Positions 35,733-40,322 of a stretch of DNA of 64,000 bases are shown one piece after another. The position numbers were made by a program, and so were the translations under genes. This DNA comes from Terriglobia bacterium. Lineage in GTDB: Bacteria > Acidobacteriota > Terriglobia > Terriglobales > Acidobacteriaceae. Position 1 is the stretch's first letter; each line of letters opens with the position of its first letter. The notes under the pieces are model-generated. The model saw only the letters and a list, made by a program, of their open reading frames with translations, did no database searches and was not told the DNA's origin. Location: the NCBI GenBank assembly GCA_021324365.1, contig JAJPJE010000043.1, forward strand, positions 62,001 through 126,000, written 5' to 3'.

Positions 35733-36164
35733 TCACCCTGTCTTGATCACCGATTCCGTATCCAGCAGCAGCAGCAATCTCTCGTTCAGCTTGAATGCTC
35801 CACGAATCATCTCGCGAGTGGTTGCATGCAGCGTATCAGGTGGAGGCTCGAATTGCTGCTGCTCGACTTCCACAACGTCGCCAATCTCATCCACCAGCAG
35901 GCTGACCGCTCCCTCTTCTGTTCGGACCACGACATTCATCGGTTCGTTACCCGCGTTGCGTTCCGGCAGTTGAAGACGCTTGCGCAAGTCAACTGCGGTG
36001 ACAATCTGCCCACGCAGGTTGATCAAGCCTCCGATCACCTCCGGAGACAGCGGTACGCGCGTGGTCTCCTGTGGACGGATCACTTCTTGCACCTTCTCAA
36101 CCTCCACACCGAAGAACATGCCGTCGAGAAAGAACGAACAGAACTGCTGGCTCGCTGCCATCAC
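35733..36164 (-). CDS. cheW: Chemotaxis coupling protein CheW
   Basis: The 143-residue protein is a CheW domain: FLDGMFFGVEVEKVQEVIRP, VPLSPEVIGGLINLRGQIVTAVDLR, VSLLVDEIGDVVEV. It links receptors to CheA. The ATG overlaps the cheA stop by four bases (ATGA), so the two are co-translated. Confidence 0.94.
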   Translation of the reverse strand: MMAASQQFCSFFLDGMFFGVEVEKVQEVIRPQETTRVPLSPEVIGGLINLRGQIVTAVDLRKRLQLPERNAGNEPMNVVVRTEEGAVSLLVDEIGDVVEVEQQQFEPPPDTLHATTREMIRGAFKLNERLLLLLDTESVIKTG

Positions 36165-38449
36165 TTCACCTCCTGCGTCGCGGCGCCCCGCACCAGGGCA
36201 CCCAGGTTCAGCAGGTCAGTTACTTTGTCTTGAATCACCGCGGAACCCTGTAGTTCGGCTACAGCACCTTTCTCTTCGATCTCTACCGCCTGCTCCACAA
36301 TATCGACGATCTGATCCACGACTAAACCAACACTGTGTCCAGCTTCGGTATACACAATCACTTGTAAGGTCTCAGGAACCTCGCTACGGTGCCTGATATT
36401 TAACTTCTCAGCCACGTCGATCAATGGCATGATCTGCCCGCGATACTGCACCACCAGGTCACTGCCCGAGTGCTCCAGCGTGTTGGCAGGAAGCTCTTCC
36501 AGGCGAGACACCATCGAGAGCGGTATCGCCATGCGCCGCTGTCCGCCCACTGTGAATACCAGCCACGAATCCTGCCCCAGCGCTCTATCCGTGTGCTTCG
36601 TGGTGGCATCGAGGAGAGCACGCTCGTGGCCTTCCGTGACAACGTTGGCGATCTGCGCGATTCCCATCACGTCGAGAATCAGGGCCACTCGTCCGTCGCC
36701 CATGATGGTCGCACCTGCAAAGCACGAGATCCCCTTTAGTTGCTTGCCGAGGGGCTTTACCACGATCTCTTCAGTGTCGTTGATTTCGTCTACCACCAGG
36801 CCGAACTGTCGGCCATCCGCCTGCAATACAACAATGTTGATCCCGCTGCGCGCGTTTTGGTCATTACTAACCTTCAGTTCCCGATTCAAATACACCAGCG
36901 GCAACAGGTTGCCGCGGAGACGGTAAACGGGCGCGCCGTGAAACTTTTCAATCGCGCGTGCAGCTTGCTCGCCTTCCAGTCTCACCAGTTCCAGCAGGCT
37001 GACCTGCGGAATCGCGAATCGTTCGCCGCCGCTGCTGGCAATCAGCGCCGGAATAATGGCGAGCGTCAATGGAATTTTGATTTTGATCGTGGTGCCTTGG
37101 CCAGTATCGCTGTGCAGATCGACAATGCCACCGATCTTCTCGATATTGGTCTTCACCACATCCATGCCGACGCCGCGGCCTGAAACATTGGTGACCTGTT
37201 GCGCGGTCGAAAACCCGGGCAGAAAAATCAGGTTTAGAAGTTCGCGTTCCGGCATGCGCGCAGCGGCTTCTCCGGTGATCAGTCCTTTTTCCAGCGCCTT
37301 CTGCTTGAGCTTCGCGACATTAATACCCGCTCCATCGTCGCTGATTTCGATATTGACTTGGCCGCCCTCGTGATAGGCGTGCAGGCACAACCTGCCCTCC
37401 TCCGGCTTCCCCGCCGCTGTCCGTTCTACGGGCAGCTCAATTCCGTGATCGACGGCGTTGCGGACAATGTGCGTCAGTGGATCTTTGATTGCCTCCAGGA
37501 TGGTCTTGTCCAGTTCGGTTTCGCTGCCGTCCATCTCAACCCGGACTTTCTTCCCCAGTCCCATGGCCAAATCACGCACTACACGCGGCAGTCGGTTCCA
37601 CAAATTCCCGATCGGTTGCATGCGCGTCTTCATTACGCCTTCCTGCAATTCCGTGGTAATCAGATTCAGTCGCTGAGCTGTACTCAAGAATGTCGTGTCA
37701 GCCTGTCCCGCTGTGAACTGCAAAATCTGATTTCTCGCCAGCACCAATTCGCCGACCAGGTTCATCAGCTTGTCGAGCAGGTTCACGTCGACGCGAAGGC
37801 TGCTGGAAGAGACAGAAGATGAACTCTCCGCTTGCACCTGCAAGGCGTCTAGAACATCGCGAGGCTTCACCGCGCCCTCTGATACCAGGATCTCTCCTAG
37901 TTTGCGTGGATCTCCTTTTGCCTGCTGGGTAACTGCCTTTTCAATCTGCTCGGGCGCCGCAACAGCGGCCTTCACCAGAATCTCGCCAACCCGTGGGGCC
38001 GGCTCTGCCGCCGCAACCGACGACGGTGCAGCCGTTGGCTGCGAGCTCTCTGTTCGAGCTGCCTTCAGAGCAGTAAGCCGCTCCACCAGCGCCGAATAAT
38101 CCCCATCGCCTTCAACTCCTGATCCCTCAATGCTCCGTAGAATCTCGCGGATAGCATCCACCATCGCCAGCAATGCCGAGGTGAGTTCCGGATCCAATTG
38201 CAGCTCACCGTCGCGGAGCATGCTTAGAAGATTCTCACCAACGTGTGCGACCGATTCGAGCTTTGGAAATCCCAGTACCCCGCTGGTGCCTTTGACCGTG
38301 TGAATCGCTCGAAAAATCCGGCCTAGCAGTTCCTTGGACGTGGGATTCTTTTCCAGTTCTATAAAGTCCTGATCTAATTGATCGAGGTTCTCACTGCTCT
38401 CGACCAGAAACTCTTTGATGATCTCGTCCCATTCACCCATTCGATCCAC
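36161..38449 (-). CDS. cheA: Chemotaxis histidine kinase CheA with two CheW-like domains
   Basis: The 762-residue kinase has an N-terminal Hpt domain with the phospho-acceptor in IHTVKGTSGVLGF, and a variable linker with a GEILVSEGAV repeat-like motif. The dimerisation domain (LMNLVGELVLARNQI) and the kinase domain (DDGAGINVAKLKQ, SGRGVGMDVVKTNIE) follow, then not one but two CheW-like regions (about 480-610 and 635-750). The second starts LGQDSWLVFTVGGQRRMAIP. A CheY-binding P2 domain is not obvious. The start is GTG at 38449 with an ATG at 38440 as an alternative. It is the first gene of cheA-cheW. Confidence 0.92.
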   Translation of the reverse strand: MDRMGEWDEIIKEFLVESSENLDQLDQDFIELEKNPTSKELLGRIFRAIHTVKGTSGVLGFPKLESVAHVGENLLSMLRDGELQLDPELTSALLAMVDAIREILRSIEGSGVEGDGDYSALVERLTALKAARTESSQPTAAPSSVAAAEPAPRVGEILVKAAVAAPEQIEKAVTQQAKGDPRKLGEILVSEGAVKPRDVLDALQVQAESSSSVSSSSLRVDVNLLDKLMNLVGELVLARNQILQFTAGQADTTFLSTAQRLNLITTELQEGVMKTRMQPIGNLWNRLPRVVRDLAMGLGKKVRVEMDGSETELDKTILEAIKDPLTHIVRNAVDHGIELPVERTAAGKPEEGRLCLHAYHEGGQVNIEISDDGAGINVAKLKQKALEKGLITGEAAARMPERELLNLIFLPGFSTAQQVTNVSGRGVGMDVVKTNIEKIGGIVDLHSDTGQGTTIKIKIPLTLAIIPALIASSGGERFAIPQVSLLELVRLEGEQAARAIEKFHGAPVYRLRGNLLPLVYLNRELKVSNDQNARSGINIVVLQADGRQFGLVVDEINDTEEIVVKPLGKQLKGISCFAGATIMGDGRVALILDVMGIAQIANVVTEGHERALLDATTKHTDRALGQDSWLVFTVGGQRRMAIPLSMVSRLEELPANTLEHSGSDLVVQYRGQIMPLIDVAEKLNIRHRSEVPETLQVIVYTEAGHSVGLVVDQIVDIVEQAVEIEEKGAVAELQGSAVIQDKVTDLLNLGALVRGAATQEVK

Positions 38450-38663: not shown

Positions 38664-38918
38664 TTAATTCGCGTAGAACGCGGCGTTCTTCGCCACCGCA
38701 TCCGTCATCTCTGCGGGAACTTCATCAAGCGGGAAAATCGAGTTCGACGTGCACACCGCCACACAGGCGCCGCAGTCGATGCAATTCTCCGGGTCAACAT
38801 ACATCTGGGTGGCTTCGGCGAATTTTGGTTCATCCTGTTTCGGGTGAATGCAATCGGTAGGACACGCGTCCACGCAAAGCGAATCTTTGATACAAGCGCT
38901 GGTAATTACGTATGCCAT
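38664..38918 (-). CDS. Seven-iron type ferredoxin (FdxA-like)
   Basis: The 84-residue protein has an N-terminal cluster region (CIKDSLCVDACPTDCI) and a second CIDCGACVAVC motif, the layout of bacterial 3Fe-4S/4Fe-4S ferredoxins. It is a soluble cytosolic electron carrier. It is encoded alone, on the minus strand, divergent from aroF. The partner enzyme cannot be told. Confidence 0.88.
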   Translation of the reverse strand: MAYVITSACIKDSLCVDACPTDCIHPKQDEPKFAEATQMYVDPENCIDCGACVAVCTSNSIFPLDEVPAEMTDAVAKNAAFYAN

Positions 38919-39021
38919 TTCTATATTTCTCCGTGTTGACGTGACACCGGCTATGTCCCCACTCCTCGGTTCCTGACCGGCTCCGTCGCTTCTACCCTAG
39001 AACGCTGCAAACAATGGGTCC

Positions 39022-39035
39022 GTGACGCGCGTCAC
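39022..39035. promoter_or_regulatory. CRP-like palindrome GTGACGCGCGTCAC
   Basis: A perfect 14-base palindrome with the GTGA-N6-TCAC layout of Crp/Fnr-family operators lies between the divergent ferredoxin and aroF genes. Three regulators of that family are encoded in the window. It could control the ferredoxin gene. Confidence 0.4.
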
Positions 39036-39068
39036 CTATGTCGTGTGACGTCCGCTTACCCGGCCTGT

Positions 39069-39098
39069 TTGACAAAGCTGCCGCAGGCCAAGTAAAGT
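39069..39098 (+). promoter_or_regulatory. Probable promoter of the aroF leader
   Basis: A consensus -35 TTGACA (39069-39074) and a TAAAGT -10 (39093-39098) are 18 bases apart. The predicted transcription start (about 39105) is only a few bases before the leader ATG at 39110, so the leader peptide would be translated from an almost leaderless mRNA. Confidence 0.55.
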
Positions 39099-39109
39099 AG
39101 CCCTCATCC

Positions 39110-39217
39110 ATGAATCCGTCGCACGCTTATCGATTTAGCTTCTTTACCTACCGCTACTGGTGGTTTACGGACAGCGGCTCTGGTAAAGCGCGTGCTCGGT
39201 ACCTGTCCAATTTCTAA
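39110..39217 (+). CDS. Aromatic-rich leader peptide of the DAHP synthase gene (attenuator)
   Basis: A 35-codon frame ends 79 bases before aroF and encodes a peptide with the run YRFSFFTYRYWWF: nine of thirteen residues (positions 7-19) are Phe, Tyr or Trp, with two adjacent Trp. Such a run is what classical attenuation needs, since a shortage of any of the three end products of the pathway would stall the ribosome. A pairing GGACAG/CTGTCC (39169 and 39203) may form the pause hairpin, and a terminator follows at 39242. It precedes DAHP synthase, the enzyme that commits carbon to all three aromatic amino acids. Confidence 0.8.
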   Translation: MNPSHAYRFSFFTYRYWWFTDSGSGKARARYLSNF

Positions 39218-39241
39218 TACCAAGCGCAAACGCAATCAGAC

Positions 39242-39272
39242 GCCGCGATCAGATCGCGGCTTTTGCTTTTTT
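39242..39272 (+). terminator. Attenuator terminator before aroF
   Basis: GCCGCGAT/ATCGCGGC (39242-39249 and 39253-39260) is an 8-bp stem with a 3-base loop, followed by TTTTGCTTTTTT. It ends 24 bases before the aroF start. The upstream GCGGC (39174-39178) can pair with GCCGC of its 5' arm and could act as an antiterminator. Confidence 0.8.
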
Positions 39273-39296
39273 AGAGCCGAATCAGGAGACTAGCCA

Positions 39297-40322
39297 ATGA
39301 TCGTCAACATGTCCGAGGGAGCAACGGAAGAGCAAATCCAACACGTAGCCGACCGAATCCGCGAAGCCGGATATCAGGCGCACATTACGCGCGGGGCGCA
39401 ACGCGCCATTGTCGCTGCTGTCGGTAGCGGCCGCCGCAATGAGATCGAAGCCCTCCAGGCCGCGCCCGGCGTAGAAGACGTGGTCCCCATCGCACAGCCC
39501 TTCAAGCTCGTCAGCCGCCAGGTGCATCCGTCCAGAACCATCGTGAACGTTGCAGGTGTGCACATTGGTGGCCCTGAAATTGTTGTTATCGCCGGACCTT
39601 GCTCGGTGGAATCAGAAGAACAGATCCTTTCGACGGCGCGGGCGGTCAAGAAGGCCGGTGCCCGCATGCTCCGTGGTGGAGCCTACAAGCCTCGTACCTC
39701 CCCGTACGATTTCCAGGGCTTGGGGACAGAAGCGCTGCGCCTGCTCGATCGCACGCGCAAAGAAACCGGACTTCCCGTCGTGACCGAGGTGATGAGCACC
39801 GAAGATGTGGACATCATCTGCGAGCATGCCGACATGCTGCAGATTGGCGCTCGCAATATGCAGAATTTCGCCCTGTTGCGGGCGCTCGCAACCATTCGCA
39901 AGCCCATCATGCTGAAACGCGGTCCCTCCGCGACTGTAAAAGAGTGGTTGCTCGCGGCGGAATACCTGCTGGCCGGCGGCAACTCACAGGTTGTACTTTG
40001 CGAGCGTGGAATTCGCACCTTCGAGACTGAAACACGCAACACCCTCGACCTCGCCGCGGTCGCACTGGCGAAGGAGCTGTCACATTTACCCGTGATCGCT
40101 GACCCATCTCATGGTACGGGTCGCCCCAGCCTCATCCCTCCTATGGCGCGCGCTGCAGTCGCTCTCGGCGCCGATGGACTGATGATCGAAGTGCATCCTT
40201 GTCCTGAGCGGGCACTTTCCGACGGCCCGCAGTCGCTCACATTTGAAGGATTCGAGCGGATGATGTCTGGTTTACAGGAACCACTGCACAGGGTCGCGCT
40301 TGCTGCCGCAACCGCGAGCTGA
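39297..40322 (+). CDS. aroF: 3-deoxy-7-phosphoheptulonate (DAHP) synthase
   Basis: The enzyme joins phosphoenolpyruvate and erythrose 4-phosphate, the first step of the shikimate pathway. The 341-residue protein is of the AroA I-beta type: an N-terminal ferredoxin-like regulatory domain (residues 1-70) precedes the barrel, which has [50 protein letters not shown] and [11 protein letters not shown]. The related Thermotoga enzyme is inhibited by Tyr and Phe through this extra domain. AGGAG lies nine bases before the ATG. With the leader and terminator upstream, it is probably controlled at two levels. Shikimate kinase is encoded at 58759. Confidence 0.95.

Follow-up and report, generated by a model that had tools for sequence, protein, structure and literature searches.

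Leader-peptide attenuation is a classical mechanism. In Escherichia coli (trpL, pheL) and Sinorhizobium meliloti (trpL), ribosome-mediated attenuation operates via aromatic codons in the leader (PMC7298713, PMC11802643); each of these leaders is dedicated to a single amino acid and controls trp or pheA genes, not the entry into the pathway, and the leaderless trpL transcript of S. meliloti begins at the leader ATG (PMC7298713). Upstream of aroF in Corynebacterium glutamicum, the AroR leader contains Phe-Tyr-Phe and, according to the account of Neshat et al. (2014) given in PMC11802643 and PMC4046766, responds to limitation of Phe but not of Tyr. A single leader that serves several end products of a common pathway is realized in the ilvBNC attenuator of the same organism (PMC11857589, PMC10272879), the transcript of which begins 1 nt before the leader ATG without a ribosome-binding site (PMC11857589). 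Two further cases are predictions, i.e., the uORFC-13-1 motif before aroF in Acholeplasma (PMC8632094) and the attenuators that Merino placed before operons with aroA I-beta, e.g., in Thermus (Table 7, PMC1173090).

In the window, i.e., the whole 64,000-nucleotide stretch of DNA from a Terriglobia bacterium that was analysed, an aromatic-rich leader is combined with an RNA switch before a gene for DAHP synthase and probably turns the enzyme on when Phe, Tyr and Trp are scarce. Like AroR, it would be a leader-peptide attenuator with aromatic codons before a DAHP synthase gene, but while AroR, as described in the sources cited above, is from another phylum and has Phe-Tyr-Phe, the window leader has nine aromatic residues of three kinds including Trp. 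The likeness to AroR appears to be one of function, the peptides being too short and too divergent for judging descent. A predicted upstream ORF and a terminator before aroF are shared with uORFC-13-1, which differs in that only Phe codons are noted, in its ribosome-binding site and in its restriction to one genus, whereas the Merino predictions share terminator and antiterminator but consist of structures only, with neither leader peptides nor Acidobacteriota described. The ilvBNC attenuator resembles what is predicted for the window leader in its integration of several end products and in the position of its transcript start; it differs in responding to branched-chain amino acids and in belonging to the Actinobacteria. 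The elements of the locus are as follows:

39069-39098, plus strand: predicted sigma-70-type promoter, TTGACA-18-TAAAGT (scan; -10-like boxes at the matching place in relatives)
39110-39217, plus strand: leader peptide ORF MNPSHAYRFSFFTYRYWWFTDSGSGKARARYLSNF, 35 codons, without a Shine-Dalgarno sequence (ORF list, shuffles, counterpart leaders in relatives)
39142-39188, plus strand: protector hairpin 1:2, pairs 39142-39148/39182-39188 and 39151-39155/39173-39177 (minimum free energy fold)
39174-39184, plus strand: antiterminator segment 2, GCGGCTCTGGT, with its partner at 39235-39246 (fold; counterparts in 65 relatives)
39235-39249, plus strand: segment 3, common to the antiterminator (39235-39246) and the 5' arm of the terminator (39242-39249) (scan and folds)
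39242-39272, plus strand: intrinsic terminator 3:4, GCCGCGAT-CAG-ATCGCGGC, with T-rich tail (scan; terminators after 65 of 74 leaders)
39284-39288, plus strand: Shine-Dalgarno sequence AGGAG of the DAHP synthase gene (sequence)
39297-40322, plus strand: DAHP synthase (3-deoxy-7-phosphoheptulonate synthase), type I-beta, with ferredoxin-like domain (PF18152, PF00793, NF006421, TIGR01361)

The leader ORF lies between a minus-strand ferredoxin gene and the plus-strand DAHP synthase gene, the product of which matched PF18152 and PF00793, scored above cut-off with NF006421 and TIGR01361, and carries the ferredoxin-like domain N-terminally. Nine of 14 consecutive codons in the leader encode aromatic residues. 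When the 260 bases upstream of the DAHP synthase gene were shuffled with preservation of dinucleotides, none of 5000 shuffles reached nine aromatics in 14 codons and the maximum was seven; a chance ORF is thereby ruled out, and the aromatic-rich frame of 35 codons to which the sequence-only reading had pointed is confirmed. Profile searches of the leader against Pfam and NCBIfam matched no leader peptide family. The source genome encodes four DAHP-synthase-like proteins (L001-L004), three of which are 50-53% identical to that of the window, and an aromatic leader is present only before the window's gene. Elsewhere in the window, a minus-strand gene for a CheA-type kinase (36161-38449) yielded an above-cut-off match to the MshE-related c-di-GMP-binding motif NF053729, which covers residues 153-206 and precedes the kinase core.

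A comparison of the upstream regions of related genes for conserved aromatic codons had been proposed together with the original reading. We gathered orthologs from named genomes, from relatives and from the class, and compared their upstream stretches after reorienting minus-strand loci; the nearest named relatives of the window are Candidatus Sulfotelmatobacter and other Acidobacteria. An aromatic-rich short ORF was present upstream of 74 of about 88 sampled orthologs in the class, and the comparison was also positive in other phyla (see below); missing conservation of these codons in relatives, which had been named as grounds for refuting the reading, was not observed. Under a uniform rule of at least five aromatics in 14 codons, 65 of 87 ortholog upstreams were positive compared with 8.7% of shuffles, and at least seven aromatics were reached in 28 of the 87 versus 0.4% of shuffles. 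At most three aromatics in 14 codons were present upstream of 14 paralogous DAHP-synthase-like genes, including four of the source genome, and no leader was found before the other DAHP-synthase-like genes of the source genome (L002-L005) or the paralogs of its relatives (L105-L114). Likewise, the listed ORFs at the source genome's own trpE (L176) included no leader with a Trp run. The leader peptides vary in order and length while their make-up of Phe, Tyr and Trp is retained (examples from relatives are MQTLRFTGFFTYRYWFFTSSGSGEARACRRI, MSTRYYYWPSFTYRFPWVGSGQGRIARVSR and MVSSNFAYAFSFSYWYWGFFASIR): among 73 distinct leaders, 62 contain all three residues, seven only Phe and Tyr, and four only Phe and Trp, such that Phe occurs in 73, Tyr in 69 and Trp in 66. 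Of 28 pairwise cases of a changed aromatic codon between close relatives, 14 still encoded an aromatic residue, a comparison within genera that lends weak support as the pairs are few and non-independent. A terminator follows the leader in 65 of 74 cases. About one in seven orthologs is without a leader, several of which lie downstream of pheA or of a gene for chorismate mutase; in one relative (L093), the leader lies farther upstream, behind an insertion. In other classes of the Acidobacteriota (L177-L202), a leader was mostly not found directly upstream of the gene, which follows a pheA-like gene in at least three of them (L179, L180, L183).

The terminator that the sequence-only reading had placed between leader and gene was retrieved at 39242-39272 (stem 39242-39260, T-run up to 39272) by a scan that by itself performs close to chance level, with 1.1 terminators expected in shuffles. 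Two parts of the switch were absent from that reading, namely the protector hairpin 1:2 and the antiterminator 2:3. The arms of the former consist of CTTTACC (39142-39148) with GGTAAAG (39182-39188) and CCGCT (39151-39155) with AGCGG (39173-39177), and its segment 1 overlaps the Phe, Tyr and Trp codons. The antiterminator uses the 5' arm of the terminator, and the two structures are mutually exclusive. When the stretch from segment 2 to the terminator loop (39174-39251) was folded as a whole, -31.5 kcal/mol were obtained (z -4.56), and none of 200 shuffles was as low. Across 65 relatives, pairing between the RNA downstream of the aromatic codons and the 5' arm of the terminator is stronger than in shuffles (mean z -1.8). 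Segments 2 and 3 from the same genome pair with -18.9 kcal/mol, compared with -14.4 kcal/mol when terminators are swapped between genomes (standard deviation of the permuted means 0.37 kcal/mol), and none of 5000 permutations matched the genomes' own pairing. The families have distinct matched sets, i.e., GCGGC/GCCGC in that of the window, GAGTGG/CCACTC in f5 and f6 and GGCGGGC/GCCCGCC in f9. Taken together with the weaker pairing after swaps, these sets indicate that the segments changed together; at the level of sequence, ORF and alternative pairings are thus in place and conserved, and the pairings co-change. One upstream region (L168) bears an apparent compensatory change: its terminator 5' arm reads ACCCGCTC and its segment 2 GAGCGG, while segment 4 is still GAGTGG, accommodated via a G-U pair.

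A promoter at 39069-39098 had likewise been described from the letters of the window. It was recovered by a scan that alone finds promoters at about chance level (0.8 expected in shuffles), and it ends 11 nt before the leader ATG. From the position of the -10 box, transcription would be expected to start at about 39104-39106, i.e., some 4-6 nt upstream of the ATG, and both the spacing of the -10 box and the missing Shine-Dalgarno sequence fit a leaderless type of start. The comparison of the 73 leaders points in the same direction. A -10-like hexamer lies 5-12 nt upstream of the leader start codon in 40 of them, with a peak at 8-10 nt, compared with only 3-6 in control windows of equal width, and a Shine-Dalgarno core precedes 8 of the 73 leaders versus 67 of the 73 downstream genes. 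Spacing and scarcity of Shine-Dalgarno cores together lead us to infer that initiation of transcription close to the leader ATG, at a distance of a few bases, is conserved among the aromatic leaders. It had originally been regarded as unusual, a view that does not hold for attenuators, as ilvBNC of C. glutamicum and trpL of S. meliloti are alike in this respect (PMC11857589, PMC7298713). For three Acidobacteria, about 13% of the genes have been predicted to be leaderless (PMC3160421).

On this basis, we consider it very probable that the locus is a ribosome-mediated transcription attenuator by which DAHP synthase is set according to the supply of charged tRNA-Phe, tRNA-Tyr and tRNA-Trp. RNA polymerase would initiate just upstream of the leader ATG, giving a near-leaderless 5' end on which a ribosome would load. 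With plentiful aromatic amino acids this ribosome would reach the stop codon and hairpin 1:2 (39142-39188) would form behind it, leaving segment 3 free for segment 4, and transcription would end at 39261-39272. Under shortage of an aromatic amino acid, it would instead stall in FSFFTYRYWWF and cover segment 1, whereupon segment 2 (39174-39184) would capture segment 3 (39235-39246) and transcription would read into the gene. In families f5 and f6, the leaders are short and their stop codon overlaps with segment 2, which a ribosome positioned there would block directly. We infer leader translation, stalling and read-through, as well as the amino acids that count, from this arrangement.

Folding with the ribosome footprint masked was consistent with such a switch, in that stalling freed segment 2 in silico and full translation did not, with the strongest effect in the window at W17/W18. 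There, the terminator probability was 0.17-0.24, compared with 0.96 at the stop codon and 0.53-0.95 at the other aromatic codons; the drop was partial at F11, F12 and Y14, and when the sequence downstream of the aromatic codons was shuffled, an equally low terminator probability was reached in 4 of 150 shuffles. Over 65 leaders, segment 3 was sequestered with a probability of 0.78 with the ribosome on aromatic codons versus 0.44 at the stop codon, the value being higher on aromatic codons in 56 of the 65 (p ~1e-10), and varying the footprint between 10 and 15 nt left this contrast unchanged. In the window alone, sequestration of segment 3 before segment 4 is made hardly differs (0.70 on aromatic codons, 0.68 at the stop), and the case for this locus is carried by hairpin 1:2 together with the lower terminator probability at the Trp codons.

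Folding therefore predicts that the Trp codons act most strongly in the window leader, which raises the question of whether the attenuator effectively senses one aromatic amino acid, Trp via W17-W18, with little effect of the Phe and Tyr codons. The restriction of the lowest terminator probabilities to W17/W18 speaks for this, as does the report, seen in the account of PMC11802643, that Tyr availability is without effect in C. glutamicum AroR. On the other hand, nearly all relatives retain Phe and Tyr codons although the order of residues in the peptide changes, and Phe, Tyr and Trp positions score alike over the 65 leaders (0.77, 0.76 and 0.72) in a masking model in which any upstream stall can open the switch and which shows geometry, not amino acid specificity. 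We consider a single-amino-acid sensor unlikely. As for the proposed response of a single leader to the three end products together, the co-occurrence of the three residues in 62 of 73 leaders upholds the make-up and makes joint sensing the natural reading, whereas the inert Tyr codon of AroR (PMC11802643) cautions against assuming that each residue counts.

Action of the leader peptide in trans, with or without attenuation, has a precedent in peTrpL of Sinorhizobium (PMC7298713). However, beyond its aromatic content the leader sequence is hardly conserved, unlike a peptide with a target of its own, and we regard such a function as very unlikely.

The presence of a terminator and an alternative fold would also be compatible with a metabolite-binding riboswitch or a T-box that the short ORF overlaps by accident, and T-boxes do control aromatic genes in other bacteria. 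An Rfam covariance search of 38900-39500 gave no match at E up to 1, eight related loci gave none at the gathering score, and what the families have in common is limited to the aromatic codons and the 2/3/4 pairing, with sequence and folds otherwise differing from one family to the next, the opposite of a conserved aptamer; this explanation is extremely improbable. A simple terminator or processing hairpin that separates two units and has a short ORF beside it by chance, for which only the near-chance counts of the promoter and terminator scans could be adduced, is already contradicted by the conservation observed (0/5000 shuffles, leaders upstream of most orthologs as well as in other phyla, matching antiterminators) and can practically be dismissed.

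The attenuator reading gains from orthologs of other phyla. Among 72 such upstreams, 29 had at least seven aromatics in 14 codons, compared with 0.5 expected from shuffles, and the reverse strand of the 72 yielded none. Among these leaders are ones from Geobacter (MNSNRFYVAFSFYFWFGFYFRPSARVEV), Syntrophobacterales, Clostridium, Lachnospiraceae, Deferribacteres and Planctomycetes, and 15 with terminators showed antiterminator pairing on average (mean z -1.9), 4 of the 15 being without it. TTGACA and a -10-like box lie shortly upstream of the ATG in several Geobacter-type leaders. The leaders from Clostridium (L080) and Lachnospiraceae (L071) instead possess Shine-Dalgarno sequences. In Geobacter and its kin, five loci with these promoter elements near the leader ATG (L037, L044, L057, L058, L065) have leaders of the form xAFSFYFWFGFYFRPSARVEV before aroF, and the TCCCCGG that follows the codons forms pairs with CCGGGG in the terminator. 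Eleven aromatics in 14 codons precede DAHP synthase in L071, L080 and a member of the Deferribacteres (L076). With leaders and terminators conserved across the class and beyond, the candidate attenuator proposed by the sequence-only reading is well supported.

In the literature searched, mostly without subscription journals, no paper on triple-aromatic leaders or a counterpart in Acidobacteriota was found. Ribosome-mediated attenuation itself is known; what is new is the triple-aromatic make-up, the predicted conserved near-leaderless start and the breadth of occurrence. On balance, we lean towards a widespread uncatalogued class of attenuators that sits at the shikimate pathway entry in Acidobacteriota, Geobacter and its relatives, Planctomycetes, Clostridia and Deferribacteres, is often near-leaderless and may integrate the charging of three tRNAs, in which case a lack of any single aromatic amino acid would open the common pathway. 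In 2010, almost no predicted attenuator of the Acidobacteria had an assigned function (PMC2965389); the group now gains a clear case with a predicted function, the signal of which can be read from the sequence. The natural leaders with their varied codon order offer a ready set for relating codon position to sensitivity, and they add a conserved case in which translation of a leader would start without a Shine-Dalgarno site. The arrangement suggests how one enzyme at the pathway entry may be coupled to three products at once with no need for a separate isozyme or repressor for each of them.
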